Below are positions 39,768-56,992 of a stretch of DNA of 64,000 nucleotides, one piece after another. Numbering within the stretch: position 1 is the first letter of the stretch; the number at the start of each line of letters is the position of its first letter. Under the pieces are notes generated by a model. That model made no database searches, was not told the DNA's origin, and saw nothing but the letters and a program-made list of their open reading frames with translations. Made by a program: the position numbers and the translations under genes. Source of the stretch: Lactiplantibacillus nangangensis (lineage in GTDB: Bacteria > Bacillota > Bacilli > Lactobacillales > Lactobacillaceae); the NCBI RefSeq assembly GCF_005405065.1, contig NZ_BJDI01000008.1:62001-126000 (forward strand). Reading direction: 5' to 3'.

Positions 39768-39807
39768 CAATTTTAGTCATTACGTTTGGTGCTAGTTGGT
39801 TTAAATT

Positions 39808-39955
39808 GCCACTCTGGTTGGGCCAGAATCGGCTGGAACGTGTTGGCCGCGTTTGGAAACCAAGTGCGGTCTACCACAAGACGGGGGTTGTCTAAGTCGG
39901 AAAATCACCGACCAAGATAAACGACACCACTGAGCCAATTCTGTCCCGCCCGACG
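39808..39955 (-). repeat. Structured repeat, copy D (divergent)
   Basis: Outer stem 39820-39834 with 39933-39947 (15 positions, one mismatch, one G-U). Inner hairpin one 39888-39900 with 39908-39920 contains a T-T mismatch, as in the other copies; hairpin two at 39847-39869. It keeps the conserved strings GCTCAG after the outer stem and CGTTCCAGC before its return (minus strand). See copies A, B and C. Confidence 0.7.
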
Positions 39956-40011
39956 TTAATTAACGGCTATTAAAAAATTAACAATTGATTATTTTTGGTT
40001 CAGCTATTTAG

Positions 40012-40164
40012 CCGAGAGGTTGGTTGCTAAAATGCTCAGCCGTGTCGTTGGCCTTAGTGCGAGTGGTCTGCTCGGACTTAGGCCAAGGCCAGTTTTGAAG
40101 ACCGCTTTTTGGCTTCAAAATGGCCCATGGCGTTCCAGCATTTTAGGAACCAACCGGCAGGCGG
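40012..40164 (+). repeat. Structured repeat, copy A
   Basis: Begins CCGAGAGGTTGG and ends CCAACCGGCAGGCGG. Outer stem 40018-40036 with 40137-40155 (18 of 19 paired). Inner hairpin one 40048-40058 with 40076-40086 (one T-T mismatch), extended by CGAG/CTCG. Inner hairpin two 40087-40100 with 40113-40125. Single-stranded strings GCTCAG and CGTTCCAGC are shared with copies B, C and D. It lies 28 bases past the prs stop, opposite in direction to prs. Confidence 0.85.
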
Positions 40165-40192
40165 AAATTTTAACTAGCACCAAGCATAGTCA

Positions 40193-41155
40193 TTACAGTT
40201 TTGCATCAAATAAACTATCAACTGGTTGTTGTTCATGAACTAATTTAATGGCATCTCCTAAGAGTGGCCCAACAGAAAGCTGGACCAATTTACCAAATTG
40301 TTTAGCTGCTGGAATCTGAATCGTATCGGTGACGATCACTTTTTCCATTGCGGAAGCTTCTAACTTTTCAGGTGCATTTTGTGACAAAATCGCATGTGTC
40401 GCACAGCCATACACTTTAGCGGCTCCGGCTGATTTTAAAGCTGCTGCCGAAACTTCAAAACGCGTCCCGGTATCAATCATATCGTCGATCACGATTGCAA
40501 TGCGACCTTTGACCTCACCAATAATACTGCTTGGCACAATTTCATCTTCAGGATGACGATTGTCAATAATTGCAATCGGTGCGCCTAACAATTCAGCCAT
40601 CTTACGTGCTCGTGAGACCCCAGCATGATCAGGTGAGACCACCACCAGATTATCAGTGATCCCACGGTCTTTGAAGTAACCGGCTAAGATTGGCGCAGCC
40701 ATCAAATGATCAACTGGAATATCAAAGAAGCCTTGGATTTGAGCAGCATGCAAGTCAATGGTCAAAATACGAGTGGCCCGATCTTTCTCCAATAAAGTTG
40801 CAATCAACTTGGCCGTAATTGGTTCCCGTGAGCGGGCTTTACGATCCTGGCGTGAATAGCCATAGTACGGAATGACAACATTAATTTCACTGGCACTCGC
40901 CCGACGTAACGCATCGATCATAATCAAAAGTTCAAGAATCGTATCGTTGACTGGTTCAGAAATGGACTGAATCACAAAAACTTCAGCGCCACGAATACTT
41001 TCTTCAATATTAATTTGAATTTCGCCATCACTAAATCGTTTAACAGAGCTCTGACCTAACGGAATACCGACCCGTTCTGAAATCTTTTTTGCTAACGGCA
41101 AATTAGAATTTAGAGCAAATAATTTTAGCTTAGCACTTGATTCATCTACTGACAT
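40193..41155 (-). CDS. prs: Ribose-phosphate pyrophosphokinase (PRPP synthetase)
   Basis: 320 residues. Makes PRPP from ribose 5-phosphate and ATP for nucleotide, His and Trp synthesis (family knowledge). Seen: the flexible loop [20 protein letters not shown], the HAAQIQGFF segment, the [17 protein letters not shown] segment, and the PRPP loop [12 protein letters not shown]. The ATG at 41155 has GGAGG upstream. Its own extended -10 promoter lies at 41196-41224. Lactobacilli often have a second prs copy elsewhere. Confidence 0.97.
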
Positions 41156-41195
41156 AACGACCTCCGGATAAATAGTTTCATGACATATATAGTTA

Positions 41196-41224
41196 ATTAT
41201 AGCAGTATCCGAGTTGAATAACAG
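41196..41224 (-). promoter_or_regulatory. Candidate prs promoter with extended -10
   Basis: TGC-TATAAT on the minus strand with a poor -35 (CTGTTA) 17 bases upstream; the extended -10 may compensate. Confidence 0.6.
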
Positions 41225-41286
41225 ATAAAAAAGGTCGCGCCAAAATAAACAACTTAGCGTGCCAATTAATTGTTAATCGCAACTAA

Positions 41287-43839
41287 CTAGGAGGACGATA
41301 CTTGCCCCATGAAATCAGTTGGCTTAATCCCAGCCATGCCAATCATTGGATCAACCTGTCCCTGTGCCACGATTGTTGGCGTCAGACGGCGTTCACCGCC
41401 TTCAGTAGCGACTGCAGCAGTTTGGTCCTCAGTCTCAGACGATGCTGAATTTGGCGTTGAATCAGCAGTCTCCACCGTTGACTCGGAAACACCTTTAGCA
41501 GCCGTGTCTGACGAAGGGACTGGCTGTGTCACGGTGGCATCGCCGTCACCAGTAAAGACTTGCTGTAATCGTTTAGTCAACGTCGTTAAACGATTCACGG
41601 ACTCATTGGTGACACTGCGTTCAAACGACTGAATGTCCCCTAATAAAATTAAGATCTGCTCAGCTCGCGTCACCGCAGTGTATAGCAAGTTTCGTTGCAA
41701 CATCCGTGAAAATTGCGGAACTAACGGCAACACGACCATCTTGAACTGACTCCCTTGAGACTTGTGGATCGACATACTATAGGCTAGTGTTAGCCGATTC
41801 CAATCAGACTTTTGATAAGTCACTTCGTTTTGGTCAAAAGCAACGGTGATCTGGTCTTTTTTAGACTTGTTGTGGGAATCATTGGCCAAATCAATCCCAA
41901 CAATCTTCCCCACATCCCCGTTGAAAACATTGTCCTCAGGTGCATTCACGAGTTGTAACACTTTATCGCCAACGCGATACTGCTGATTATTGTAACTGAG
42001 TTGTTTTTGTCGCTTGGATTTCACCGGATTAAAAATATTTTGGACCGTCGTATTCAACTGGTCGATCCCAGCGGCACCCCGATACATCGGTGCTAGGATT
42101 TGGACATCATCCGCCGTGAAACCTTTCGCTTTCGCCTTGGAAACCACCTGTTCAATAATGTGATTGACTTGAAAGGCATTGCAAGCAATGAAGGACCGGT
42201 CTGGTTGATTAACGGTAAAGTCATCCGGCAAGCGACCATCCTTGATGGCATGTGCCAGTGGAATAATACTTGAATCGTCATCTTGCCGGTAAATCGTATT
42301 TAACTCAATCTGTGGTATCTCAGGGCTTTGCAGCAAATCATGAAAGACTTGCCCCGCTCCAACTGATGGTAATTGATCTTTATCGCCAACTAAGATGACC
42401 TGCATGTGACTCGGGACTGCTTGGAGTAATAACCGGAACAAATTGGTGTCCACCATCGACATTTCATCAATGATTAAAATACCGCCTTCCAAATCCTTCG
42501 TCGGCATTTCAGGATCATCATCCCGTCCCGTTAAACCAAGTAACCGATGAATCGTCCCCGCTGGCAAGCCGGTCGTTTCTGCCATCCGTTTAGCGGCGCG
42601 ACCAGTCGGCGCAGCTAACAAGATTGGAAATGGCTTGTCCTTATACTCATTAACATCTAACGACACATCGTGTAATTCCGCAAACAACGCGACTAAGCCA
42701 CGAATGATCGTCGTTTTCCCGGTCCCGGGACCACCAGTCAATAGAAATAAGTGCGACGTGATTGCTGATTTAAGCGCCTGTGTTTGCGAGGCATCATAAG
42801 TTAAATTGCTGGCCTTAGCCACATGGCCGATTGCCCGGTCAACAGCTTTCTCGGTCAAGCTACCGTCATTATCCGCATCATGGAGTCGCTTCAAGTGTTC
42901 AGCGATACCCCATTCCGCTTCGTATAACGGCCGTAAGTAAATACGATTTTCTTCACCGACAATTTTATTCTCTTTAGCTAGAGCTACTAATTGGTCCGCC
43001 AGCTTTTGCGGATCAATCGCAACATTGCGCGAGTTTTCAAGTAACTGTAATGTTGCGGTAATCAGCGGTTTGGCAGTCGTATAGGTATCGCCATTTTGAG
43101 CACAGTTGTCATTGATTTGCGTCAGTAACGCTGCCTTTAGCCGACTCTCAGACTGCGGATCAACTTTTAATTGCGCGGCAATCTGATCCGCCTTTTTGAA
43201 CCCGACCCCTTTGATATCTTCTACCAAACGATATGGATCTTCTTGAATAACTTGTAATGTATCACCTTGATACTTGGCATAAATCGCCGCCGCTAAACGA
43301 CTCCCAAAGCCGTAAGCGTTCAGACCAATAATCGTTTGTTCTAAGCCGTTATTCACCCGTAAGGTGTCTAATAAGGTCGCCCGGACTGACGCCCGTAACC
43401 CAATCGGTGTCAAAACCTTAGGATCATCTAAAATTTTATCAATGGCGTTCTCACCAAGCGTGTCCACGATTCGCTCAGCGGTGCGGCGTCCCAAGCCTGG
43501 AAAATCACTTCCCGCCAAGTAAGCAATTAGACCACTGCGAGAAGTCGGCGTCTCATTTTGATAATTATCCGCCTGAAATTGTGTCCCATATTTGGGATGA
43601 CGGACCGTTTTCCCCGTAAACTTGTAGGTGCCCTCTTCTTGAATGTCGGCAAAGCTACCCGTCACGACGATTTCATCCTCAGACCAATCAATATTCTGTT
43701 CGGTTACTTTAACGAGTAACACTTTATAAAAACTATCCGAACTGCTGAAAAAAACGGCTGCGACCTTACCAACGATAAAGCGCGTGACCGTTTGACCTGC
43801 ATAATCATCCGGAAATAAACTTGGATCAGTTGCCGGCAC
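41287..43839 (-). CDS. recD2: RecD2 family 5'-3' DNA helicase
   Basis: 850 residues. SF1B helicase acting without RecBC in Firmicutes, involved in replication-fork and repair processes (family knowledge). Seen: a long N-terminal domain with OB-like start and helix-hairpin-helix (FPGLGRRTAERIV, IKGVGFKKADQIA), Walker A GGPGTGKT at 369-376, LIIDEMSMVDT, and C-terminal YSMSIHKSQGSQF and VTRAEQ motifs. A Thr/Ser/Glu-rich tail of about 90 residues follows and is not part of the helicase. GTG start with GGAGGG upstream. Confidence 0.95.
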   Translation of the reverse strand: MPATDPSLFPDDYAGQTVTRFIVGKVAAVFFSSSDSFYKVLLVKVTEQNIDWSEDEIVVTGSFADIQEEGTYKFTGKTVRHPKYGTQFQADNYQNETPTSRSGLIAYLAGSDFPGLGRRTAERIVDTLGENAIDKILDDPKVLTPIGLRASVRATLLDTLRVNNGLEQTIIGLNAYGFGSRLAAAIYAKYQGDTLQVIQEDPYRLVEDIKGVGFKKADQIAAQLKVDPQSESRLKAALLTQINDNCAQNGDTYTTAKPLITATLQLLENSRNVAIDPQKLADQLVALAKENKIVGEENRIYLRPLYEAEWGIAEHLKRLHDADNDGSLTEKAVDRAIGHVAKASNLTYDASQTQALKSAITSHLFLLTGGPGTGKTTIIRGLVALFAELHDVSLDVNEYKDKPFPILLAAPTGRAAKRMAETTGLPAGTIHRLLGLTGRDDDPEMPTKDLEGGILIIDEMSMVDTNLFRLLLQAVPSHMQVILVGDKDQLPSVGAGQVFHDLLQSPEIPQIELNTIYRQDDDSSIIPLAHAIKDGRLPDDFTVNQPDRSFIACNAFQVNHIIEQVVSKAKAKGFTADDVQILAPMYRGAAGIDQLNTTVQNIFNPVKSKRQKQLSYNNQQYRVGDKVLQLVNAPEDNVFNGDVGKIVGIDLANDSHNKSKKDQITVAFDQNEVTYQKSDWNRLTLAYSMSIHKSQGSQFKMVVLPLVPQFSRMLQRNLLYTAVTRAEQILILLGDIQSFERSVTNESVNRLTTLTKRLQQVFTGDGDATVTQPVPSSDTAAKGVSESTVETADSTPNSASSETEDQTAAVATEGGERRLTPTIVAQGQVDPMIGMAGIKPTDFMGQVSSS

Positions 43840-43854
43840 CGGAGTCCCTCCTAA

Positions 43855-44544
43855 CTATGGTTTAGTTGACTTGCTGGACGACTCTGACTGAGCTGCCAGC
43901 ATTTTTTCGATATCACTTAATTGTTGTTGGTGCGTTTTAAAGTAAGTTGCATCAACTGATTTGGCCTGTGCAAACAAGTCAGCATACGGTTTACCAAGGA
44001 CCATGGCCGTCAACCCGGCGTTGAAATACGCAGCACCTTGTGTTGGATCCAACTTAATCACTTTTTGATAGTAATCGTATGCTTGCTGATTATTGCCCAA
44101 TGCAAGTAGAATATTTGCAACTAGCAAATTGGTGTCGACTGCCTGTGGTTGCGCCTCTTGGGCGGTCAACGCCCAGACAAGTGCATGCTGATAATCTTTT
44201 TTAGCCATCAGTGCCTGACCCATCATTAAATAGGCGTCAGCCGTCAACTTTGGATCAGTGATTTCTTGATACGCCGCCAACGCTTTATCATAGGCTTCGG
44301 CTTGATAGTAAACATTACCTAGCGCATAAGTCAGCAAATTTTTAGCTTTTTGATTGGCTTCAAATCGTCCTAGTGCTTTCATCGCCAAAGCTTCGGCTTG
44401 TTCATAATCTTGCCCAGCGGTCAACAAGACAGTTAATTCATAATAAGCTTGATAGTCACCAGGTTGGGTATCGATTTTTTGCACCAGTTGATGGACCAAA
44501 GCCTGTTGCTCGGCTTTACTTGGTCGGCCAGTTGTCTCTGTCAT
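43855..44544 (-). CDS. Tetratricopeptide-repeat protein
   Basis: 229 residues, soluble. About five TPR units (DYQAYYELTVLLTAGQDYEQAEALAMKAL-type pattern broken into helix pairs; KNLLTYALGNVYYQAEAYDKALAAYQ; LLVANILLALGNNQQAYDYY). Such proteins are scaffolds. Stop is 15 bases before the recD2 start, a conserved neighbourhood in lactobacilli, so a role linked to RecD2 is possible but not shown. Confidence 0.88.
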   Translation of the reverse strand: MTETTGRPSKAEQQALVHQLVQKIDTQPGDYQAYYELTVLLTAGQDYEQAEALAMKALGRFEANQKAKNLLTYALGNVYYQAEAYDKALAAYQEITDPKLTADAYLMMGQALMAKKDYQHALVWALTAQEAQPQAVDTNLLVANILLALGNNQQAYDYYQKVIKLDPTQGAAYFNAGLTAMVLGKPYADLFAQAKSVDATYFKTHQQQLSDIEKMLAAQSESSSKSTKP

Positions 44545-44558
44545 AAACGCGCCTCTTT

Positions 44559-45224
44559 CTAAATCGTATCAGTTGGATCTGGTTGCCGTGACAAATAGGA
44601 CGTATCATTCCAAAGTAATAATTTATAACTTTTCCCGCGATCACGCGTTTCTAAAATCGTCGTACTTGTATTCGATAAGCCACCACGATCACGCAAGGTC
44701 GCCAGTGTCGCCCCAAGCATCGTGTTGACCAAGGCATTTAAAGCCGCCCCGTGACTGACGATCAGGACATTGTCTTCCCGACGTGGGTTAGCAGCCACGA
44801 TTTGTTGAATGGCTGGAAGCATCCGTTTGATCAACTGTTGAAAGCTTTCGCCATGAATCGCCGTTGGATCGTATTGATCAGGATGATTCCGAAAGCTGTC
44901 AAATTCTTGGGGGTATTGGGCTTGCACATCCGTAAACGCCATCCCCTCCATCTTACCCAAGTTGAACTCGCGTAACCGACTCAGAATCGTCAAACTCAAG
45001 TCCGGCTGTTCCAAGTCATTTTTTAGCGTCATCGCCGTATCACGTGCGCGTTTTAAGGGACTCGCATAAATGTGACTGAAATGGATCGGTTGTAATGCTG
45101 CTGCCAGTTGATGAATTTCTTCATAACTAGCCGGTAATAATGGTGAATCTCCTTGTGAGCCTTGGTAGCGCCCCTCGAGGTTCCAAGCCGTTTTACCATG
45201 CCGAATAAATAGCAATTTTGTCAA
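44559..45224 (-). CDS. Histidine phosphatase/phosphoglycerate-mutase family protein
   Basis: 221 residues. The RHGKTAWN motif at residues 8-15 carries the phospho-accepting histidine and SHGAALNALVN the second histidine. The family includes cofactor-dependent mutases and broad phosphatases; a phosphatase is more likely than a glycolytic mutase because the active-site surroundings are short (inference). TTG start with GAGGAAG 7 bases upstream. Operon with the TPR and recD2 genes. Confidence 0.87.
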   Translation of the reverse strand: MTKLLFIRHGKTAWNLEGRYQGSQGDSPLLPASYEEIHQLAAALQPIHFSHIYASPLKRARDTAMTLKNDLEQPDLSLTILSRLREFNLGKMEGMAFTDVQAQYPQEFDSFRNHPDQYDPTAIHGESFQQLIKRMLPAIQQIVAANPRREDNVLIVSHGAALNALVNTMLGATLATLRDRGGLSNTSTTILETRDRGKSYKLLLWNDTSYLSRQPDPTDTI

Positions 45225-45371
45225 AAGATTACTTCCTCATCTTGGCCGTTCACGACCTTACAGTTTAACTTCTATTATGCCAGTTATTGGCTTAATTTTC
45301 AAAAATCGCTAACTACTGTGATAAATTAAAATTATGTAAACTTTATTGAAATCAATCCGTAAACTGGGTAC

Positions 45372-45398
45372 AAAAAAGACCTGGAACCTTCCCAGGCC
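45372..45398 (-). terminator. Terminator after ktrA
   Basis: GGCCTGG/CCAGGTC stem followed by six T residues on the minus strand. Confidence 0.82.
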
Positions 45399-45405
45399 AA
45401 CTTGT

Positions 45406-46068
45406 TTACTTTTTCAAGGCTTCATCTAAGCCCTCGACCCCTTTGATCGGTCCAACAACGGTCAAGACATCATGTAGTGCCATCATATCCGTGGGCTCCG
45501 GTGACACATTGATTTGACCATGATGCTTGATGGCGATGACCGTCAAGCCAAACCTCTCGCGCAGATTCAACGCAATCAAATTTTGATCCACAAAAGTTGG
45601 ATCCGTAATCTCAATTGCTGCGAGTGTATACTCATCACTGAGATCAATAAAATTCAAAATGTGATTTGATAACAATTTACGGACAATGCTGTGCCCCATG
45701 TCACGTTCTGGGAAGACGACTTGGTCCGCCCCAACCCGTTCTAGGACCCGACCTTGATCGCTCGTCTCGGCTTTGGCAATCACTTTTTTAGCCCCTTGCT
45801 CTTTACTCAACATGGTGGTCAAAATACTGGCTTCCATATTATTCCCGATTCCAACGATGACATAATCAAAGGTATCAATATTCAGTTCACGGAGAACTGC
45901 TTCGTCACGGGTATCGGCAATTAGCGTTTGGGTGGCGACTTCCATCAGTTCATTGACCGGTTCCTCATGGATGTCGACCGCCAAAACATCCTGATGCGCA
46001 TCCACTAAAGTGCGCACCACGCTTTGACCAAAGCGTCCTAAACCAAATACTGCAAAACTTTTTTTCAT
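45406..46068 (-). CDS. ktrA: K+ uptake regulatory subunit, KtrA/TrkA type
   Basis: 220 residues. Cytoplasmic gating ring of a Ktr potassium channel, opened by ATP (family knowledge). Seen: RCK-N Rossmann domain with GLGRFGQS and an Asp at the end of strand two (LAVDIHEEPV), then an RCK-C domain from about residue 135. It lies 12 bases after ktrB, which supports the pairing. Cyclic di-AMP binding to the C domain is known in relatives but is not read from this sequence. Confidence 0.92.
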   Translation of the reverse strand: MKKSFAVFGLGRFGQSVVRTLVDAHQDVLAVDIHEEPVNELMEVATQTLIADTRDEAVLRELNIDTFDYVIVGIGNNMEASILTTMLSKEQGAKKVIAKAETSDQGRVLERVGADQVVFPERDMGHSIVRKLLSNHILNFIDLSDEYTLAAIEITDPTFVDQNLIALNLRERFGLTVIAIKHHGQINVSPEPTDMMALHDVLTVVGPIKGVEGLDEALKK

Positions 46069-46080
46069 CTTTACGACCCC

Positions 46081-47433
46081 TTAACCAATCAAAATATTTT
46101 CAGCCGGATAGCGAATCAAATTGACCTTCGCTTGGCGTTTAGAAAGTGCGTATAACGATGTGAAGATGCCAACTCGCCCAATAAACATGAGCAACATGAT
46201 CACGATTTTTCCAACGACCGTCAAATGCGGTGTCAATCCCAAACTCAGTCCAACGGTCCCAAACGCAGATAGGACTTCGAAGACGACATACTCCAGTCCG
46301 AATCCTTGGGGAATCTTCTCCGTTTGCGTCAAGATCAAGGTTGCCACGGAAATCACGATACTGGCCAAAAACACGAGTAGTAATGCCCGACTAATGTTAG
46401 CTTGACTGAAACGCCGATGGCTAAATTCAACATCTTGCTTACCACGTATTTGGGCGATACTTTGAAACATCAGGACGCCAAAGGTCGTTGTTTTGATCCC
46501 ACCGGCCGTTGAGCCAGGCGTCCCACCAACAAACATCAGGACCATCAGAATAAATAAACTCCCAGCTTGGAGTTTGCCGGTCGGCATCGTGATCAACCCA
46601 GCCGTGCGGGGCGTGACGCTTAAGAATAACGTATTCACGGTCCGATTAAACCAAGACGTCCCTGCCGGCAATAATTTCAAATCACGTTCCGTAATTAATA
46701 ACAGAATGAACCCGATCACAAACAGACTCATCGTGGTCAATAACGTTAACTTCGAGTTCAACGATAAACGTTTCCGCTCATGATAGAGTAACAAGTCGCG
46801 CCAAACTAAGAAACCCAACCCACCGGCAACAATCAAGATCATCGTCACGATTAGCACGTAGGAATCACTCCGAAAGTCCATCAAACTATTGCCAAAGACA
46901 TCAAAACCAGCGTTACAAAATGACATGACTGCGTGATAGAGCGACACGTACAAGCCGCGATGCCAGCCAAATCGTGGCACAAAATCAAGTGCCAACAATC
47001 CCAGACCACCTAATTGAAATAACAAGGACAAGCCGATCACATAGCGCATGACACTCTTCGTATCACTCAAGTTTTCTAAATTCAGGGATTCTTTGACCAT
47101 CAGTTGCGTCGACAGCCCAATATTACGGCGCATGATATTAAATAAGAGTACCGCAAAAGTCATGTACCCCAAAGCACCGACTTCCGACAATGCCAGAATG
47201 ACTACTTGCCCAAATGTCGTCCAATGTGTCGCCGTATTCACGACCGTCAGTCCAGTAATGCAAGTCGCTGAAGCCGCTGTAAACAAGATATTTATAAACG
47301 AGCTGTGACTACCCGGAGTGGTGGCCATCGGTAAACTTAACAGGACGGTCCCAATCACGATCAAAATCACGAAACCGGCAACCATCTTTTTAGATAAAGT
47401 ATCAAAAAATTTAAATTCTTTTAATTTCTGCAT
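46081..47433 (-). CDS. ktrB: K+ transporter membrane subunit KtrB
   Basis: 450 residues, four M1-P-M2 units. Pore-loop glycine segments seen: TCITGL, CNAGFD, TPRTAG, and FGTVGLSLG. Forms the ion path with KtrA. I chose ATG at 47433 (MQKLKEFKFFD); a TTG five codons upstream is in frame, and neither has a strong ribosome site. NtpJ is another name used for such proteins. Confidence 0.92.
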   Translation of the reverse strand: MQKLKEFKFFDTLSKKMVAGFVILIVIGTVLLSLPMATTPGSHSSFINILFTAASATCITGLTVVNTATHWTTFGQVVILALSEVGALGYMTFAVLLFNIMRRNIGLSTQLMVKESLNLENLSDTKSVMRYVIGLSLLFQLGGLGLLALDFVPRFGWHRGLYVSLYHAVMSFCNAGFDVFGNSLMDFRSDSYVLIVTMILIVAGGLGFLVWRDLLLYHERKRLSLNSKLTLLTTMSLFVIGFILLLITERDLKLLPAGTSWFNRTVNTLFLSVTPRTAGLITMPTGKLQAGSLFILMVLMFVGGTPGSTAGGIKTTTFGVLMFQSIAQIRGKQDVEFSHRRFSQANISRALLLVFLASIVISVATLILTQTEKIPQGFGLEYVVFEVLSAFGTVGLSLGLTPHLTVVGKIVIMLLMFIGRVGIFTSLYALSKRQAKVNLIRYPAENILIG

Positions 47434-47526
47434 AACTATCCAATCCAAATCCAGTCTTTCTTCTTAGCTTAAGCAACCCCCCATTGAAATGCAAGCCCTG
47501 TTTGCTGTTTTCACCGCTTTCAACAA

Positions 47527-47568
47527 CAAAAAAGCCACCAGCATTCAACAGTGAATTGCCAGTGGCTT
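47527..47568 (-). terminator. Terminator after mnmA
   Basis: AAGCCACTGGCA with a pairing partner (12 bp, with G-U pairs) followed by six T residues on the minus strand. Confidence 0.82.
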
Positions 47569-47583
47569 GAAACTCATTTAAAT

Positions 47584-48714
<1,131 letters not shown>

Positions 48715-48781
48715 TCACCATCATTTCCAAAAGATTCTGGAGAATCCACGATTTGAAGGTCGTACAAGTCCAGTAATACCC

Positions 48782-48809
48782 ATTATAACAAAGAAAACGC
48801 CGGCTGCAA
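48782..48809 (-). promoter_or_regulatory. Candidate mnmA promoter nested in the upstream terminator
   Basis: TTGCAG, 16-base spacer, TATAAT on the minus strand. The -35 lies in the loop/stem of the terminator at 48788-48820 and the -10 follows its T tract. Confidence 0.6.
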
Positions 48810-48820
48810 GCCAGGCGTTT
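48788..48820 (-). terminator. Terminator after the DUF1831 gene
   Basis: AAACGCC...GGCGTTT stem with an inner GGC/GCC, followed by TTTTCTTTG on the minus strand. Confidence 0.75.
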
Positions 48821-48825
48821 CATCA

Positions 48826-49167
48826 TTATGCTTCAACCAGGACATCCCGGTCAATAAAGTTCTTTAAAATGAACCGTAATTGTTCAACTGCTTCCGGATG
48901 CGCGTCATTTTTGAAAATGTTGGCGCGTTGTAACCCGTTACCCGTAACGGTCGACAACTTAAACCCGTCTAAGTCAGCGTTGACGCTCATCTTTAATCGA
49001 AACGCAGCGTTATACGGCGTATTCGGGTCTAACGACCAAGAACACATGAATGCGCCAGACTTGCCCTTCGTAAAGCCTAAATCCATCAACGTATACTTCT
49101 TAATCCCCGTACTAATTTGATAAGTCTTTGAGTCGCCTTCAAGTTTCACACTTGTTGCATAAGCCAT
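48826..49167 (-). CDS. DUF1831 family protein
   Basis: 113 residues, single alpha/beta domain, soluble. Fits the DUF1831 family of lactobacilli and enterococci, of unknown function. Located 15 bases after the cysteine desulfurase gene and before mnmA, so a link to the thiolation pathway is conceivable (inference). The ATG has GAGGA upstream. Confidence 0.85.
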   Translation of the reverse strand: MAYATSVKLEGDSKTYQISTGIKKYTLMDLGFTKGKSGAFMCSWSLDPNTPYNAAFRLKMSVNADLDGFKLSTVTGNGLQRANIFKNDAHPEAVEQLRFILKNFIDRDVLVEA

Positions 49168-49182
49168 GTCAAAGTCCTCCTC

Positions 49183-50334
49183 TTATTTTTTTAATAGTCG
49201 GTTAACGGTCTTCGTTAAAACGGTGACAAATTGATCTAAGTCAGCTTTGGTCGTATACCGGCCAAAACTTAACCGAATCGATTCAGCCACCCGTGGTGAG
49301 TCTTCCCCAAACATGGCAATTAAGACATGTGACGGTTCCAAACTACCCGCAGTACAAGCAGAACCTCCGGAAACCGCGACCCCACCCAAGTCCAAATTGG
49401 TCTGCAAGGTATAAGTCGAAATCCCTTTGATCCATAAATTCAAGACATGTTGTAAATTGTCTTCACCTAATTGACCATTCACTTCAAAGTCAACATCATT
49501 GGCGGTCAGTTGATCGACAACGTATTTTTTAAAATCGTGATACTTGGCCTGACGATGGGCTTTTTCAGCGGTCGTCAATTCTTTAACGGCTGTGGCAAAG
49601 CCAGCGATAGCCGGCACGTTTTCGGTCCCTGCCCGGCGCTTATCTTCTTGTTCGCCACCCTTGATCAAGCTTGGAAAATTGACCCCATTACGCTTGTAAA
49701 GGAAGCCAATAAATTTAGGCCCATTGATCTTGTGAGCTGAAGTTGAAAGCATATCGATGTGATCGCGTTCAACATCAATATCCAATAGCCCATAAGCTTG
49801 GACGGCATCCGTATGGAACCAAGCCTGATGATCCTTGAGTAACTCGCCGATTTCATGAATTGGCATATGTGAGCCCACTTCATTATTTCCCATCATAATT
49901 GAAACTAGGATCGTATCTGGTCGTAAGGCCGCTTTAAAATCAGCCAAACTGATATCACCATTTTCATCGACTGGGAGATAGGTGACCTCGAAGCCTTGCT
50001 TTTCCAAGCTAGCTAATGGTTTTAAAATCGCTTGATGTTCAACCGCCGTGGTAATAATATGCTTACCTAAGCTTTGACGCGCCATCGCCGTTTGCATAAT
50101 GGCGGTGTTGTCGCCTTCCGTCCCACCACTCGTGAAAATAATATCATCATCCGGCGCGTTGATACTTTGGGCAATAATATGCCGACTATCATCTAAAACT
50201 TCGCGGGCCGCCCGACCAAAGGCATGGGTGCTCGACGCGTTCCCGAACGTATTGGTCATCTTGTCCATCATCTCTGACACTACCGACTCAGCCATCGGCG
50301 TCGTCGCAGCGTTATCAAGGTACACTCGCTTCAT
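49183..50334 (-). CDS. iscS: Cysteine desulfurase (YrvO/IscS type)
   Basis: 383 residues. PLP enzyme that takes sulfur from cysteine and passes it on as persulfide. Seen: PLP Lys202 in STSAHKINGPK, catalytic Cys327 in SGGSACTAG, ATTPM N-terminus. The neighbouring mnmA suggests the YrvO role, feeding tRNA thiolation, as opposed to Fe-S assembly; both are possible. No iscU/sufU is nearby. ATG with AAAGGAAG upstream. Confidence 0.93.
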   Translation of the reverse strand: MKRVYLDNAATTPMAESVVSEMMDKMTNTFGNASSTHAFGRAAREVLDDSRHIIAQSINAPDDDIIFTSGGTEGDNTAIMQTAMARQSLGKHIITTAVEHQAILKPLASLEKQGFEVTYLPVDENGDISLADFKAALRPDTILVSIMMGNNEVGSHMPIHEIGELLKDHQAWFHTDAVQAYGLLDIDVERDHIDMLSTSAHKINGPKFIGFLYKRNGVNFPSLIKGGEQEDKRRAGTENVPAIAGFATAVKELTTAEKAHRQAKYHDFKKYVVDQLTANDVDFEVNGQLGEDNLQHVLNLWIKGISTYTLQTNLDLGGVAVSGGSACTAGSLEPSHVLIAMFGEDSPRVAESIRLSFGRYTTKADLDQFVTVLTKTVNRLLKK

Positions 50335-50366
50335 TAAACTACTTCCTTTTAAAAGATCTGACTTAA

Positions 50367-51062
50367 TTACTTATTTTGGGCTTTAAATAGTGCTAACAAC
50401 ATTGCGGCCGATTGTTTGCCGGCTGCTAAGATAAATTCATCAAAGCTGACGCCAGCCGCTTCATCACCAACATCGGACATGGCCCGAATCACGACATATG
50501 GCGTGTTAAATTGGTGACAAGCTTGACCAATGGCTGCGCCTTCCATTTCACTCGAAAGCGCCTCGGGAAAATGCGCTAGGATTTTGTCAGTGGCGGCTTT
50601 ACCAGCGATAAATTGATCCCCAGACACAATTAGCCCCGTCTTGGCATGTAACCCAGTAGCAGCTGCCGCACTCACGATCTGTTTGACCCAGTTGGCATCC
50701 GTTTCATAGTAGAGCGGTTGTTGTGGCAACTGACCGTAAGCGTAGTCAAAGGCCGTCGCATCGACATCGTGGTAGGCAGTGGCGGTGGCAACGACCACGT
50801 CACCGACAGCTAGGCCTTGACCGATACCGCCTGCAGAACCAGAGTTGATGACCACATCCACGTCAAAGTTAGTGATCATTAACGCGGTCGTCATCCCAGC
50901 TTGAACTTTACCAATACCAGATTGAACAAGGACGACTTCTTGATTGTCGATCGTGCCATCATAGAAAGTAATATCCTTAATCGGCACCACTTTTTCATTT
51001 TGCAGCGCTTCTCGCAAAGTCTTAAGCTCTTCTGCCATTGCACAAATAATTCCAAATTTCAT
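50367..51062 (-). CDS. mtnN: 5'-methylthioadenosine/S-adenosylhomocysteine nucleosidase
   Basis: 231 residues. Hydrolyses MTA and SAH to free adenine; the SAH product feeds LuxS and methyl-cycle recycling (family knowledge). Seen: GIICAMAEEL start, NSGSAGGIGQGLAVGDVV, EMEGAAIGQ, and RAMSDVGDE. It precedes the cysteine desulfurase in one operon. Confidence 0.96.
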   Translation of the reverse strand: MKFGIICAMAEELKTLREALQNEKVVPIKDITFYDGTIDNQEVVLVQSGIGKVQAGMTTALMITNFDVDVVINSGSAGGIGQGLAVGDVVVATATAYHDVDATAFDYAYGQLPQQPLYYETDANWVKQIVSAAAATGLHAKTGLIVSGDQFIAGKAATDKILAHFPEALSSEMEGAAIGQACHQFNTPYVVIRAMSDVGDEAAGVSFDEFILAAGKQSAAMLLALFKAQNK

Positions 51063-51082
51063 CAGTTTTAAATCCTACTTTC

Positions 51083-51337
51083 TTATGGGGTTAAAAATAA
51101 TATTAAAAAAACAATGATAATTGCTAAAACCAGCCCTAAAATTACCCAGTTAAGTTTGCGACCTAATCGCTTTGATTTAGCTTCAACTAGCGCCCGGTTA
51201 TTTTCAGCGGCATACGCCCGCCGTGACGACTCCGAACTACCTTCGTCCGGATCAGCTGTCGGCTCATCCGCGGGATCCGGTTGTGCCTGTTGTTCACGAT
51301 AACGTTGACGCGTCATGTGATCTTCTTCATCAGCCAT
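51083..51337 (-). CDS. Small C-terminally anchored membrane protein, unknown function
   Basis: 84 residues. A hydrophilic, acidic, Gln/Pro/Glu-rich N-terminal part is followed by one C-terminal membrane helix (LNWVILGLVLAIIIVFLILFL). This is a tail-anchored layout. The ATG at 51337 has GGAGG 8 bases upstream and overlaps the Nudix gene by 8 bases. It is real by context, but I recognise no family. Confidence 0.78.
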   Translation of the reverse strand: MADEEDHMTRQRYREQQAQPDPADEPTADPDEGSSESSRRAYAAENNRALVEAKSKRLGRKLNWVILGLVLAIIIVFLILFLTP

Positions 51338-51890
51338 GGGCAGTGCCTCCTAACGTCGGATGATTTTGCCAGTACCAGATTGCCATGATCGTTTTAGCAT
51401 CCGCAATCTGGCCGGCAGTGATTGCTGCGAGGGCCGTTGCCAAACTCATCTTTTCTAAGTGTAGCCGTTCGTCGGCGTCTTGTGGCAACGCCTGTTCAAC
51501 CGGTGAGAGCCCCGTTGCAACATAGAGCGTCATGTATTCGTCGGTAAAGCCAGGTGACGTATAAAAACCAGCCACTTGGTCCAGCTGGGCCGCCACTAAC
51601 CGCGTTTCTTCATTCAATTCACGAACCGCAGCCGCAGCCGCCGTTTCACCAGGTTCAACTTTACCAGCAGGAATCTCTAACGTGACCCCGTCGGTTGCAG
51701 CCCGCCACTGTTTAACTAAGATCAATTCATTGGCAGCAGTCACCATCAATACCGCAATTGCTGGTTGATGACGCACAACATCACGCGTTGCTGGCGTCTG
51801 ATCCGGCAACGTGACTTGTTGACGTTCAACTTTGACGAGCCCACCATTGAATACTAGCTTGCGCGTCTGCACCTGTTCTTTAAAGTCCAT
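51330..51890 (-). CDS. ADP-ribose pyrophosphatase, Nudix family
   Basis: 186 residues. Cleaves ADP-ribose to AMP and ribose 5-phosphate (closest type by sequence). Seen: Nudix box GKVEPGET...RELNEETRL, where the final glycine is replaced by arginine-leucine but the catalytic glutamates are kept; the SPGFTDEYMTLY stretch is typical of ADPRases. The ATG at 51890 has GGGGGT upstream; the ORF extension to 51920 is not needed. Confidence 0.88.
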   Translation of the reverse strand: MDFKEQVQTRKLVFNGGLVKVERQQVTLPDQTPATRDVVRHQPAIAVLMVTAANELILVKQWRAATDGVTLEIPAGKVEPGETAAAAAVRELNEETRLVAAQLDQVAGFYTSPGFTDEYMTLYVATGLSPVEQALPQDADERLHLEKMSLATALAAITAGQIADAKTIMAIWYWQNHPTLGGTAHG

Positions 51891-52041
51891 CGTAAGACCC
51901 CCTGTGACTTGCTTTCTCACTAAGGATACCGATTTTTAAGCCTGAATGCAATTTTCACCCAGCTAATTTTAGAGATTCTTTAGCGCCCGGCGTGCCTTCG
52001 ACTACTGCTAGGCTTAAGCCACCGCATCGCGTCGATGTCAC

Positions 52042-52080
52042 AAAAAAAACGCTGAGCAGTCATCACGACTCACCCAGCGT
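52042..52080 (-). terminator. Terminator after dapF
   Basis: ACGCTG...CAGCGT with an inner GAGTC/GACT pairing is followed by eight T residues on the minus strand. Confidence 0.82.
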
Positions 52081-52089
52081 CTATCTCAA

Positions 52090-53088
52090 TTAAGCCGTCG
52101 TTAACGACGTGACAAAGTCTTCATACGCCGCTTGTTCACCAGTAATGGTGGCTGAAGCTTGTGTAAAGTCAGCAGCCAACGCATCGGTTAATGGGAGGCT
52201 CACGATTTTAACAAACGTGGCATTCCCAATTAATTCCATCCAATATTCTTCATCTGCACCTTGATGGACGACCGTTTTGACCATCCCACCAGGATTAGTG
52301 ACCTGAATTTCTTGATTAAAATCAGTGCTCTCTTGATGTAACAAAACGTACATCAATGAAGAAGCCGACATGGCCGTTCCACAGGCATTGGTAAACCCAA
52401 CCCCGCGTTCAAAAGTCCGGACAAAAATTGAATTTTGGCCTAAGACTTCAACAAAGCTCACGTTGACGCCATCTGGGAAAATCGTATTTTTGCCATCATT
52501 CAGCCATTCGCCAATGCGACCCAATTCATCCCCAACGAGGGTGGCATGGTCAACAAAAGCAATCAAATGTGGATTAGGGACGGCAACTGCAGAAAACTTC
52601 AACTCACTTTTAAGTTCAGGAATCGTTTCATTGATAATCGTTTGGGCCTCATGGTTAGCATGCATCCCAAGCGTTTTCGCATCAAATGACACTGGTGAGA
52701 TTTCAACGCTGTAAGCTGGGACTTGCTTAGCAAAGTCAGCAACTGCTTGAACCTTCAAATCAGCATACATCGTTTCGACCCGGAAATTATCGGCATCATT
52801 TTGCGTACCAAGATAGCGGGCAACGGTCCGTAACCCATTCCCACACATGCTAGCTTCTGTACCATCTGCGTTAATGACCCGCATCCGGCCCAAGACATGC
52901 GCATGTTCCGATTTATCGACAACCAGCACCCCATCAGCGCCTTCGTATAAGCCGGCACCATCACGCTTACAAATATTAATTGCCAACTGCTTTAAGCCCT
53001 TATCTGTGAGCGGCTCTGGAAATTGCGTTTGGTCCAATAAGTAAAAATCATTACCGGAACCATGCACCTTGATCATTTTCACTGCCAT
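52090..53088 (-). CDS. dapF: Diaminopimelate epimerase
   Basis: 332 residues. Converts LL-DAP to meso-DAP for peptidoglycan and lysine (family knowledge). Seen: the HGSGNDF start, catalytic cysteines in MCGNGLRTV and TNACGTAM. About 50 residues longer than the E. coli enzyme. The ATG at 53088 is 6 bases after TAGG; an ATG two codons upstream overlaps the ribosome site. The partner dapA is at 7966-8841. Confidence 0.95.
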   Translation of the reverse strand: MAVKMIKVHGSGNDFYLLDQTQFPEPLTDKGLKQLAINICKRDGAGLYEGADGVLVVDKSEHAHVLGRMRVINADGTEASMCGNGLRTVARYLGTQNDADNFRVETMYADLKVQAVADFAKQVPAYSVEISPVSFDAKTLGMHANHEAQTIINETIPELKSELKFSAVAVPNPHLIAFVDHATLVGDELGRIGEWLNDGKNTIFPDGVNVSFVEVLGQNSIFVRTFERGVGFTNACGTAMSASSLMYVLLHQESTDFNQEIQVTNPGGMVKTVVHQGADEEYWMELIGNATFVKIVSLPLTDALAADFTQASATITGEQAAYEDFVTSLTTA

Positions 53089-53199
53089 CAGCATCCTATC
53101 TATTTAATCAACTCGGTTTTAGTTACTTCACCATCATACTGACTTTTACAAGATATTTCAATTCCAAAGAACCAAAAAATTTATGTTGGCGCCTTCAAA

Positions 53200-53243
53200 C
53201 AAAAAAAACGAGTTGACCAGCAGTTTCCTGCCAATCACCTCGT
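53200..53243 (-). terminator. Terminator after ileS
   Basis: A 16-bp stem (one mismatch, three G-U pairs) with a GAAA tetraloop followed by eight T residues on the minus strand. Confidence 0.9.
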
Positions 53244-53262
53244 CTAAATTTCTAACGTTAAC

Positions 53263-56061
53263 TTAAGCTTCCAAACCAGTTGCGACTGATTCTGGATAGT
53301 TCGTCCGCACAATATCTGCACAACGGGCACAAAGCATTGGATAAGCAGTATCACTGCCGACATCCGTCTTAGTCATCCGACAACGGGAACAAACTTCACC
53401 GTCAGCATGGCTAACTTTAATCGCTTCATGGTCACCAAAAGTTTCCGCATCGGCTGGTGCCTCAGCTAAATCATGTAAATCAAGTGCTGAAACCATCAAC
53501 ATTTCACGAACGTTGGTGTTCAGACTGTCAAGCAATGACTTAGTTTCCGCATCGACGTACAAGTCCAAGTGAGCTTCCAATGATTTCCCAATCAATTTAG
53601 CATCCCGGGCTTCTTCTAACGCCTTCAAAACATCACTCCGCAAGTCCATAAACTTGTGCCAGTTGGCGTTGAGCTCGTCAGCGTTCGCATAATTTTGAAC
53701 GGTTGGCATTTCAGCCAATTGGACGAATTCTTCTGGTTCCTTCAGGAATGGCCAAATTTCTTCCGTCGTATGTGGCAACATTGGCGTAAAGAGCTTCGTC
53801 ATCGCAACCAAGACATCATAGAAGACCGTTTGCATTGACCGCCGTGAATGACTGTCTTCAGCATCGATATACATGATATCTTTGGCGATATCCAAGTAGA
53901 AGTTCGATAAATCGACCGTCAAGAAGTTCAACAATTTCTTGTAAATATCCAAGAAGTCATAGTGGTCATAATGGTCTTTGACTTCGGCGACAAAATCGTT
54001 CAAACGAACCGCCATGTACTGGTCTACCGTGGCCAAGTCGTCAAAGGCGACCCGGTTTTCTTTTGGATCGTAATCCGTCGTATTGGCTAACAAGAAACGC
54101 ATCGTATTCCGGAACTTCTTGTAACCATCAGCGACTTGCTTAAAGCTTTCCATTGAAACACGCACATCAGAACTCGTATCCACTGAAGAGACCCACAAGC
54201 GGACGATTTCAGCCCCCATTTGCTTGATGACTTCAGCTGGTGCAATCGTGTTACCCAATGATTTACTCATCTTACGACCTTGATTATCCAAGGTAAAGCC
54301 TTGAGACAAGACTTGCTTGTATGGGGCATGACCAGAAACCGCCACACTGGTAATCAAACTTGAGTTGAACCAGCCACGATATTGGTCAGACCCCTCCAAG
54401 TATAAGTCAGCTGGGTAGTCCAAGTAATCACGTTCAGCCAAGACGCCTTGATGTGACGAACCAGAATCGAACCACACATCCATGATGTCTTCTTCTTTAG
54501 TGAATTGGCCATGTGGTGAGTGTTCATTTGTATAACCATCTGGTAACAAGTCTTTGGCCTCGCGTTCAAACCAAACATTTGATCCGTATTGACCAATCAA
54601 GTCCGCGACATGATCGATCGTTTCTGGTTCCATGATGGCCGTGCCATCTTCGGCGTAGAAGATTGGTAGCGGTACACCCCAGACCCGTTGCCGTGAAATG
54701 ACCCAGTCACCGCGGTCACGAATCATGTTGTAAAGTCGTTTTTGACCCCAATCAGGGAAGAATTGCACGTCATCAATGGCGTGTAAAATTTCATCCCGCA
54801 TGTCGCCAACGGAGGCAAACCATTGTGGTGTTGCCCGGAAGATGATTGGTTTCTTAGTCCGCCAGTCAAATGGATAGCTATGTTCGTATGGCATGTAATC
54901 CAATAACAAGCCAGCTGCCTTTAATTTGTCCAAGGCGATTTGGTTGGCATCGTCATAGAAGACACCGGCAAAATCGGGACCGGCTTCTTCAGTCAAGACC
55001 CCTTGGTTGTTCACTGGCGCAAACACAGGTAAGTCATACTTCATCCCGATACGGTAGTCATCTTCCCCATAACCAGGCGCCGTATGCACGAGCCCAGTCC
55101 CAGCGTCGAGTGTGACAAAGTCGCCTAACATCGTGACTAATTTCCGACTGGCATCAAATGGGTGTTCACAAATGACCCGGTCTAAATCGGCCCCTTTGAC
55201 CGTTTTAACGACTTTGACATCTTCCCAACCGAAACGCTTAGCATTTTCATCAACTAATTCGGCTGCGATCACATACTTGTGATCATCACCACTGTGTTGA
55301 ACGACGGCGTAGTCGAAACTAGCATCGATCGTGATCCCTTCAGAAGCTGGAATCGTCCAAGGCGTCGTGGTCCAGACGACCATATACGTGTCATCGTCCA
55401 AGACACCCTTACCATCAATGACTTTTTCGCCATAAAATGCGGATGGTGACGTCACATCATGATATTCAACTTCGGCTTCAGCCAAAGCAGATTCGGAAGA
55501 CCATGACCAATAAACCGGCTTCTTACCACGATAGATCAAGTGACGTTTGGCAAATGCGCCAAATACCCGAATTTGAGCAGCTTCGAATTCTGGCTTTAAG
55601 GTCAAGTATGGGTTATCCCATTCACCAGCAACTCCGAGCCGTTTGAATTCATCACGTTGGCGATCAACCTGCTTCAAGGCATATTCGCGACAAAGTTCAC
55701 GGAACGCATTGGTGCTCATCTTTTTACGGTCATAGCCCGCTTGTTGTAACTTTTGTTCGATTGGTAGCCCATGAGTATCCCAACCAGGCACATAAGGGGC
55801 GCGGAAGCCGTTCATTGATTTATAACGAACGATAAAATCTTTTGTAATCTTGTTCAACGCGTGACCCATATGAATATCACCGTTGGCGTATGGGGGGCCA
55901 TCATGCAAAATGAAAGTTGGTTTCCCTTCATTTAGCTTTTGTCGTTGTTCATAAACTTTGTTTTCCGCCCAAACGTTTTCACGTTCGAGTTCTTTAACTG
56001 GTAAGTTACCACGCATTTTAAACTTGGTTTTACCGAGGTTAAGCGTTTCTTTAACGCGCAT
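53263..56061 (-). CDS. ileS: Isoleucyl-tRNA synthetase
   Basis: 932 residues. Class I synthetase. Seen: HMGH (HIGH signature) in [17 protein letters not shown] in [10 protein letters not shown], the editing domain ([10 protein letters not shown]), and a C-terminal zinc finger with CSRC and CARC. The ATG at 56061 has AAGGAG upstream. Regulated in principle by the T-box at 56734-56945, but nearly 700 bases of structured DNA lie between (see findings). Confidence 0.98.
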
Positions 56062-56125
56062 TTGACCACTCCTTAATATTTTTTAGACTATCTAGGTTGA
56101 TTGACTTTGATGCGGTGATCGATTG

Positions 56126-56276
56126 CCGCCTGCCGGTTGGGGCGCGCAAGGCTGGAACGTTGCCGGCCATTTTCGAGCCAAAAAGCGATCTCGAAAAGTG
56201 GCCTTACCCTAACTGCCGTAACCCACGTCAGTAAGGGTAATTTGGCGGCTGAGCCTTGCGCACCCCAACCTCTCGG
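56126..56276 (-). repeat. Structured repeat, copy B
   Basis: Outer stem 56135-56153 with 56252-56270 (19 of 19 paired, one G-U on the minus strand). Inner hairpin one 56204-56215 with 56229-56240 (T-T mismatch). Inner hairpin two 56165-56177 with 56190-56203. Minus-strand start CCGAGAGG, end CCGGCAGGCGG, as in copy A. It lies 65 bases upstream of ileS in the same orientation. Confidence 0.88.
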
Positions 56277-56316
56277 ATAAATTTATCACCATTCTACCAG
56301 CGAGCGTCAAGTGATT

Positions 56317-56460
56317 AATCAACTGAGATTGACCAATTAAAAATTCGAACTGCGTCTTAGATTATTGCCAGGCATTCTCAGCCAATATCATTTTAAAATT
56401 ATCGGTCTTAATGCTGAAATAATCCAGACGCTTATTTAATTGACACAATCTCAGTTGATT
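56317..56460. repeat. Long imperfect hairpin between repeat copies B and C
   Basis: Five nested paired blocks: 56317-56331 with 56446-56460 (15 bp perfect), 56335-56341 with 56435-56441, 56352-56357 with 56426-56431, 56360-56366 with 56418-56424, 56372-56376 with 56410-56414. Forty base pairs in 144 bases. No T tract follows on either strand. Could be a MITE-like relic or an RNA structure. Confidence 0.7.
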
Positions 56461-56498
56461 AGTCCCCCAACAGGTTCTAGTAAAGTGATGTCACTTAG

Positions 56499-56651
56499 CC
56501 GTAAGGTTGGTCCGGCTGAGGCTCAGTGGTGAAATTTCACTTGGCGAGGGTTGTTGCCTCGCCTAGTGAAAGGCCAAGCTTTGAGACGTGGTTTTCGGCT
56601 CAAAGTTGTGCCCACCACGTTCCAGCCTCAGCCGGAGCAACCGGTCGGCGG
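56499..56651 (+). repeat. Structured repeat, copy C
   Basis: Begins CCGTAAGGTTGG and ends CCGGTCGGCGG. Outer stem 56505-56523 with 56624-56642 (18 of 19 paired). Inner hairpin one 56536-56549 with 56557-56570 (T-T mismatch). Inner hairpin two 56572-56585 with 56599-56612. Carries GCTCAG and CGTTCCAGC. Antisense to the ileS transcript. Confidence 0.85.
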
Positions 56652-56733
56652 CAATCAGACACGATCTTGGATCTAACACCAATCAAACAAAATAGCCTTA
56701 AATTACCAAATCAATTCCACAATTTTGGATACA

Positions 56734-56762
56734 AAAAAACTCCGTCCGGCAAGGGACGAAGT
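56734..56762 (-). terminator. T-box terminator hairpin
   Basis: CTTCGTCC/GGACGGAG with a 6-base loop followed by seven T residues on the minus strand; one arm would be taken up by the antiterminator. Confidence 0.85.
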
Positions 56763-56945
56763 TATCGTGGTACCACCCAATTTTAGAATTGTTTAGATTC
56801 TCTCATAGCATGGTTAACGGTCATGAACCGGCCGACCTTACTGATTTCAGGCCGACATTCGGAGATGATCTGCAACTTCGTGAGGGACGACCGGTTCACA
56901 CTTTATCCGGCTCTCTGTGCGTATCACTAAGTTGTTTGCTGTTCT
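56734..56945 (-). promoter_or_regulatory. T-box leader for ileS
   Basis: On the minus strand GGGTGGTACCACG (plus 56767-56779) matches the T-box that pairs with the tRNA acceptor end. It is followed by a terminator hairpin and T7. Upstream, a structured stem I region contains ATC ATC (plus 56864-56869), a candidate isoleucine specifier, and paired GCC/GGC segments. Uncharged tRNA-Ile should favour read-through into ileS (family knowledge). The terminator and T-box could compete in the usual way. Confidence 0.88.
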
Positions 56946-56992
56946 CCTCAAAATGTTAATAAAATTTAACTGTACTGTTGATTTTAGTCGAC

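Follow-up and report, generated by a model that had tools for sequence, protein, structure and literature searches.

Four related sequences of about 150 bp lie within a 64,000-nucleotide stretch of the Lactiplantibacillus nangangensis genome (hereafter the window), and the initial annotation, made from the letters alone, saw in them a structure whose paired arms had changed together. The locus raises a question: are these copies a selected fold, passive repeats, or something that shares in both?

A family of folded modules in lactobacilli

All four copies were recovered at the places and on the strands first reported. We described them with a covariance model, R1, built from 20 copies in the same genome (alignment A3). 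It matches module D at 39803–39958 on the minus strand (79.0 bits), module A at 40009–40168 on the plus strand (167.5 bits), module B at 56122–56279 on the minus strand (161.8 bits) and module C at 56496–56655 on the plus strand (148.3 bits). Among the own-genome matches of at least 69.5 bits, these four are the only ones in the window. The strings GCTCAG and CGTTCCAGC occur in all four copies. The shared ends claimed for the whole set were found in A, B and C, whereas those of D differ, and the intergenic location holds with a qualification: B and C sit in the ileS leader, between its T-box and the ileS start codon.

The modules, about 150 nt long, are abundant. The L. nangangensis genome contains at least 102 R1 matches at E-values up to 1, at least 85 of them scoring at least 69.5 bits, and a blastn search with copy A found 52 places there, six of them full-length at 93–100% identity (copy A included). 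R1 matches occur in 19 of the 21 genus genomes, L. nangangensis included, with 20 to at least 142 in each, these per-genome counts being lower bounds. Under stricter filters, they occur in 83 of 301 sampled genomes of the family, in 13 of 40 genera; of 295 sampled genomes of the order, 11 matched, all belonging to the window's own family. A pattern scan of named genomes gave at least 80 loci which, among the matches listed, all lie in lactobacilli, in genera that include Lactiplantibacillus, Levilactobacillus, Companilactobacillus, Lapidilactobacillus, Lacticaseibacillus, Liquorilactobacillus and Schleiferilactobacillus. The two genus genomes without any module, G018 and G019, are among the smallest (2.6 Mb).

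The initial annotation could assign no named family, and Rfam agrees: no family reached its gathering threshold on the modules, and the neighboring T-box alone matched. A known RNA family was rejected, as the Rfam hits at E-values up to 10 were low-scoring and far below gathering. A literature search, in which some result lists were incomplete and most subscription journals lay outside the coverage, found no description of the family. A plasmid or phage element was also considered and rejected; blastn of the D+A region, which represents one subfamily, matched nothing in the plasmid or phage collection. The family of folded DNA modules to which the four repeats belong is very common in lactic acid bacteria and apparently undescribed; among the structured repeats of lactobacilli it seems to rank with the more abundant.

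Each of the four copies folds, as had been proposed, into an outer stem enclosing inner hairpins, with energies of −56.2 to −98.5 kcal/mol with flanks. The common fold consists of a long outer stem, an asymmetric internal loop, hairpin one and hairpin two. The internal loop has fixed letters, CA opposite GTTCC, which are invariant or nearly so in the 20 copies; the T-T mismatch noticed in hairpin one (CTTAG facing CTTAG) has both T residues invariant in 20 of 20, and the tip of hairpin two is conserved. In a separate case, a 75-bp match at G000:C14:60722-60796 aligns to both ends of copy A (1–38 and 114–153), and so would be a deletion derivative that keeps the outer stem only, beside an intact partner.

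The compensating changes seen in four copies extend to the family, and the covariation, strong enough to define the fold, lies far above shuffled and slid controls. In A3, 96.5% of 1076 cells pair (79.5% when shuffled, 29–50% when slid), and both sides change in 31 of 54 pairs. Among 85 matches from other genera, whose alignment was fitted to the model, as were alignments A5–A7, 95.5% of 4240 cells pair (67.0% when shuffled, 38–45% when slid), and both sides change in 50 of the 54. G-T exceeds A-C by 44 to 6 in A3 and by 190 to 59 in the matches from other genera, and the modelled strand is therefore the one that folds. Single-stranded DNA of the same strand would explain this asymmetry equally well. 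The matched changes that keep the fold suggest that it does a job.

Paired modules, the IS982 link and inversion in place

The modules come in pairs. Among 141 pairs of close neighbors (<900 bp), 137 are head-to-head: all 25 in G012, all 22 in G016, all 24 in G015, all 26 in other genera (49 loci), 19 of 21 in the L. nangangensis genome and 21 of 23 in 26 further Lactiplantibacillus loci. The four exceptions are two ++ and two −− pairs. About ten apparent single copies in the L. nangangensis genome show a diverged partner of ~190 nt. A complete unit runs from a terminal inverted repeat through an outward module, a spacer and an outward module on the opposite strand to a second terminal inverted repeat. 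Other arrangements were seen among the matches listed: G098 has tandem runs of same-strand modules, such as three in a row at G098:C4:201766-202225, and G014 has one ++ module pair or tandem run.

In the window, D and A are the left and right ends of one such unit, separated by a spacer at 39959–40008. Its left terminal inverted repeat (TACGTTTGGTGCTAGTT, 39781–39797, plus strand) and its right one (AACTAGCACCAAGCATA on the plus strand, 40172–40188, minus strand) each differ by one base from the first 17 bp of an IS982-family IS in the same genome, at G000:C13:79265-80220. The transposase of this IS (289 aa; NF033520, 219 bits) is encoded between terminal repeats identical over 21 bp, and the genome carries two open copies and one broken copy of the gene. 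A direct repeat, TAGTCATTAC, flanks the unit as a target duplication; its left copy (39774–39783) runs into the start of the terminal repeat there, and its right copy (40187–40196) shares bases both with the terminal repeat at that end and with the stop codon of the adjacent gene. That gene, encoding ribose-phosphate diphosphokinase (40193–41155, minus strand; NF002618, 519 bits), ends abutting the insertion.

Units of the D+A type, ~0.4 kb long and ending in TACG(C/T)TTGGTGCTAGTT or near variants, occupy more than 20 places in three genomes (G000, G004 and G017). Allowing up to one mismatch, we counted their 15-bp end motif 15, 138 and 147 times in these genomes, respectively, and the reversed control 0 times. 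Of 21 such units, 10 have at least seven identical bases in their two flanks, compared with 12 of 420 control pairings of mismatched flanks; the 21 include one site that is counted in each of two species. The duplications are 7–14 bases long, and shorter or imperfect in the remaining 11 units. Because it shares its terminal repeats with an IS that is intact in its own genome and has direct repeats at its ends, D+A is, by sequence, an IS982-type MITE. Apart from these units, two D+A end motifs ~135 bp apart at G000:C18:28144-28278, with no listed copy A match, are possibly a shorter MITE of the same IS that carries no modules.

Units of G012 are longer (~960 bp) and end in TACGC(A/G)TTGTGCTAGTTA. 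The other end variant, TACGC[A/G]TTGTGCTAGTTAAT, is common to the units of G012 and G016 and to IS982 relics of G016 and G004. Relatives of the IS982 protein (at 1e-30) occur in 10 of the 21 genus genomes. None was found in G012 at this threshold; the units of this genome are linked to the IS by their end sequence. In module-free G019, two IS982 relatives at 39% identity are still present. That the module might itself be the IS982 end was rejected; neither of the two IS loci examined (L265 and L266) contains one.

The second pair, B+C, lies just upstream of ileS (53263–56061, minus strand, start codon at 56061; TIGR00392, 937 bits), between the gene and its T-box leader (56749–56960, minus strand; Rfam RF00230, 97.7 bits). 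Module B is in the sense orientation in this leader and C is antisense to the ileS transcript; the spacer between them (56280–56495) holds an inner inverted repeat (TAATCAACTGAGATTG). The insertion extends approximately from 56085 to 56705, its ends being inexact. It is found at this site in G000 and G002 and is absent in 19 of the 21 genus genomes, where the flanks adjoin closely; G013 and G005 have unrelated filler of ~80 and ~145 bp at the site. The terminal repeats of B+C are decayed, with a weak common end, GGCGGCAAnnnnnCACTATC, and no matching IS was found. Other L. nangangensis pairs whose ends were printed are likewise decayed with a weak GGCGGCAAnnnnnCACTATC, and no transposase was found for them. 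No promoter-like site was seen in D+A, and none above chance in B+C.

The position of B in the ileS leader would suit a classical, riboswitch-like RNA that regulates certain genes in cis and happens to have been repeated, as would a pair that lies, in four species, upstream of a gene whose start resembles metG by eye. Against this stand the at least 85 strong matches in one genome, the absence of B+C from the ileS site in most of the genus, and the location between convergent genes of 9 of 20 mapped unit entries, some of these entries being fragments of a single unit or one site counted in both species. We consider this explanation highly improbable. A role as regulator of particular genes was rejected because the context is too mixed. 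Unit orientation showed no replichore bias.

How stable are the units in place? We compared sister species G012 and G016, using units catalogued from fetched loci (81 in G012, from part of the genome, and 80 in G016). At 35 shared sites with both flanks matching, the unit is inverted in 25 and direct in 10, all comparisons being between species. As in an inverton, a segment between inverted sites is thus found in both orientations at one locus. In the inverted pairs (22 or 23 of 25 measurable), the outer 45 bp match directly at a median of 82% (64.5–67% crosswise), while the 60 bp inside match crosswise at 78–79% (45.5–47% directly); these identities are medians, and in several single pairs the motif anchor is missing or the contrast weak. 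The breakpoint falls near a short inverted motif, ATGATTAAAnCRTGC, outside the modules. Since G016 is a draft of ~50 contigs, misassembly was considered, and at a 20-bp repeat it is unlikely. With G015 (2 contigs) as a third genome, two G012 sites are shared, both direct, and one G016 site, inverted; at one site, G012 has the unit direct and G016 has it inverted.

Random flipping could invert at most 50% of the sites, and 25 of 35 is above this (p = 0.017). Sites with contents that are, by eye, non-orthologous (~15 inverted, 3 direct) account for the excess, rather than those with orthologous contents (~8 and 7). Because the same-site unit is the best cross-genome match at just 15 of the 35 sites, unit contents have probably also been exchanged between sites. 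Two further cases were examined and set aside. At L467/L411, where an inversion between L. dongliensis and L. songbeiensis seemed to be present, the two species turned out to have independent insertions at separate points of a single intergenic region, so that inversion is seen for G012 and G016 only; an apparent solo insertion in L. songbeiensis (L428) reads instead as an internal deletion in L. dongliensis (L478), with the outer arms remaining.

These observations could be taken further. In a genome-wide cassette system, a site-specific recombinase acting at inverted ATGATTAAAnCRTGC would invert units in place and swap them between dozens of fixed chromosomal sites; each unit would carry two outward RNA modules of a new structural class, and IS982 would only seed the sites. 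We regard such a system as unlikely. For food bacteria, the inversions in place and the exchanges are relevant to the remodelling of chromosomes by repeats of this kind.

Constraint on the fold at single sites

The same two sister species allowed the fold to be followed at orthologous loci. Twenty module pairs of at most 14% divergence came from 18 locus pairs (three loci were matched by one flank, and two of these gave pairs). Paired positions differ at 64 of 2156 (3.0%), unpaired positions at 110 of 1177 (9.3%) and the spacers of six units at 203 of 2124 (9.6%). One-sided changes at pairs were of the Watson-Crick/G-T kind in 26 cases and involved A-C in 4 (p = 6e-5); the others were 8 transversions and 2 further changes. 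Double changes kept the pair in 11 cases and broke it in 1. The slow paired positions, together with the 26 to 4 excess of G-T over A-C, indicate that the fold of one strand is constrained.

The four-species pair gives a second view. It is head-to-head and occupies the same site in G000, G001, G002 and G013 (loci L225, L061, L065 and L079), with 10–17 differences per 154–160 bases in the modules, 7–12 per 33–35 in the spacer and 10–13 per 61–62 in the outer flanks. In pairwise, and thus non-independent, counts, the single changes were 22 G-T, 3 A-C and 15 others, and the double changes were 29 that kept the pair and 5 others. Another same-site pair, L174/L177, whose members are nearly identical, showed 1 G-T and 2 A-C. 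At L250/L084, a site supported by one flank, 9 kept doubles were found against 1 single change, and paired positions changed more (19 of 108) than unpaired ones (4 of 51).

B+C behaves otherwise. Against its one orthologue, in G002, it shows no per-locus constraint on the fold: differences fall at 16 of 232 paired, 7 of 86 unpaired and 27 of 185 spacer positions, and 10 of 15 changed pairs are broken when judged on the G000 fold, which is biased against G002. This lack of constraint speaks against a function of that pair, or of its G002 copy.

The decay of B+C is what one would expect if the modules were passive long terminal repeats without function, their pairing kept by hairpin-directed repair or gene conversion. 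The likely exchange between units, seen in the low share of same-site best matches, and the double changes among orthologous ones (the 11 in G012/G016 and the 9 at a single site) also agree with this. Repair of quasi-palindromes, however, gives perfect pairs and not G-T intermediates outnumbering A-C by 26 to 4; nor would it account for loops of fixed letters (CA/GTTCC and the T-T mismatch) in 20 copies, or for paired positions that change three times more slowly than spacers. We find it improbable that the modules are passive. The initial annotation had opposed a selected structure to passive repeats. Its first half stands, on the covariation and on the constraint found at single loci elsewhere; the contrast with repeats does not, as the copies are also mobile, D+A by its sequence as an IS982-type MITE and B+C as a joint insertion.

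The modules are mobile, paired and structured. The explanation we favor, with a probability of about 0.55, is a new MITE-like family in which the copies are the structured ends of small non-autonomous mobile units, moved by IS982, and the fold acts as an insulating RNA after insertion. Since the D+A, G012 and G016 units carry IS982-family terminal repeats, they are most likely mobilized in trans, now or in the past, by an IS982 transposase. The fold, being strand-specific and kept at several fixed loci, would act after insertion, most likely as RNA; the strand asymmetry, the persistence in G012, where no IS relative was found, and the absence of the module from the IS all point to this level. 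A transcript that crosses a head-to-head unit in either direction would contain one module in the folding orientation. The folded RNA may insulate the transcript, by processing or antitermination, so that units would be tolerated in leaders such as that of ileS.

Alternatively, the module could work not as RNA but as single-stranded DNA, folded into a site for a recombinase or a transposase like those of REP/RAYT or integron attC. The asymmetry of G-T over A-C fits this as well; a mobile unit has a module at each end, the two inverted relative to each other, and units are inverted in place with contents that differ between shared sites. Yet the two IS982 loci examined hold no module, the inversions break at a short motif that is not part of the modules, and the direct repeats suit a DDE transposase rather than an HUH enzyme. 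The fold is also kept at fixed sites in G012, where a relative of the transposase was not found. A DNA site seems to us rather unlikely. In the favored reading, of an IS982-moved unit whose fold acts as RNA, the family is a MITE carrying a selected fold that its IS lacks, and the effect of mobile repeats on themselves or their host, at the RNA or single-strand level, becomes testable with compensatory mutations.

Relation to known repeats

REP, BIME and REPIN elements are extragenic and of high copy number, with hairpins that alternate or are inverted; REPs are ~20–40 nt long and tied to a RAYT gene. The present modules resemble them in being high-copy hairpins in inverted pairs (137 of 141 head-to-head). 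Unlike REPs, they are ~150 nt long, and D+A has IS982-type ends and direct repeats. MITEs derived from IS982 have direct repeats and terminal repeats in common with the IS982 transposase gene of the same genome. In contrast to these, the present units contain, in duplicate, a selected folded module that is absent from the IS, and those of G012 reach ~960 bp and are found inverted in place.

Correia/NEMIS and ERIC elements are described as MITEs of 100–200 bp that have TA termini and pair end to end into a long stem-loop; their transcripts fold and can alter how an mRNA is processed or how stable it is (PMC2229807). The present module, by contrast, is a closed stem bearing two arms; its internal loops are conserved, and it is carried in pairs. 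MITEs, NEMIS, ERIC and BOX are treated in PMC10969869, PMC2229807 and PMC3049150, whose main texts do not contain the term lactobacill.

BOX elements of Streptococcus pneumoniae are structured, dispersed intergenic repeats with IS-like terminal repeats, built of boxA-boxB-boxC subunits; one BOX is co-transcribed with T-box motifs in the trp leader (PMC3049150). The present modules are likewise structured and dispersed in Lactobacillales, and B+C beside the ileS T-box resembles the BOX in the trp leader. Unlike BOX as described there, the present units consist of two outward 150-nt modules that form a pair, a distinction drawn from the published description. Across the 295 genomes sampled from the order, R1 matched members of the window's own family only.
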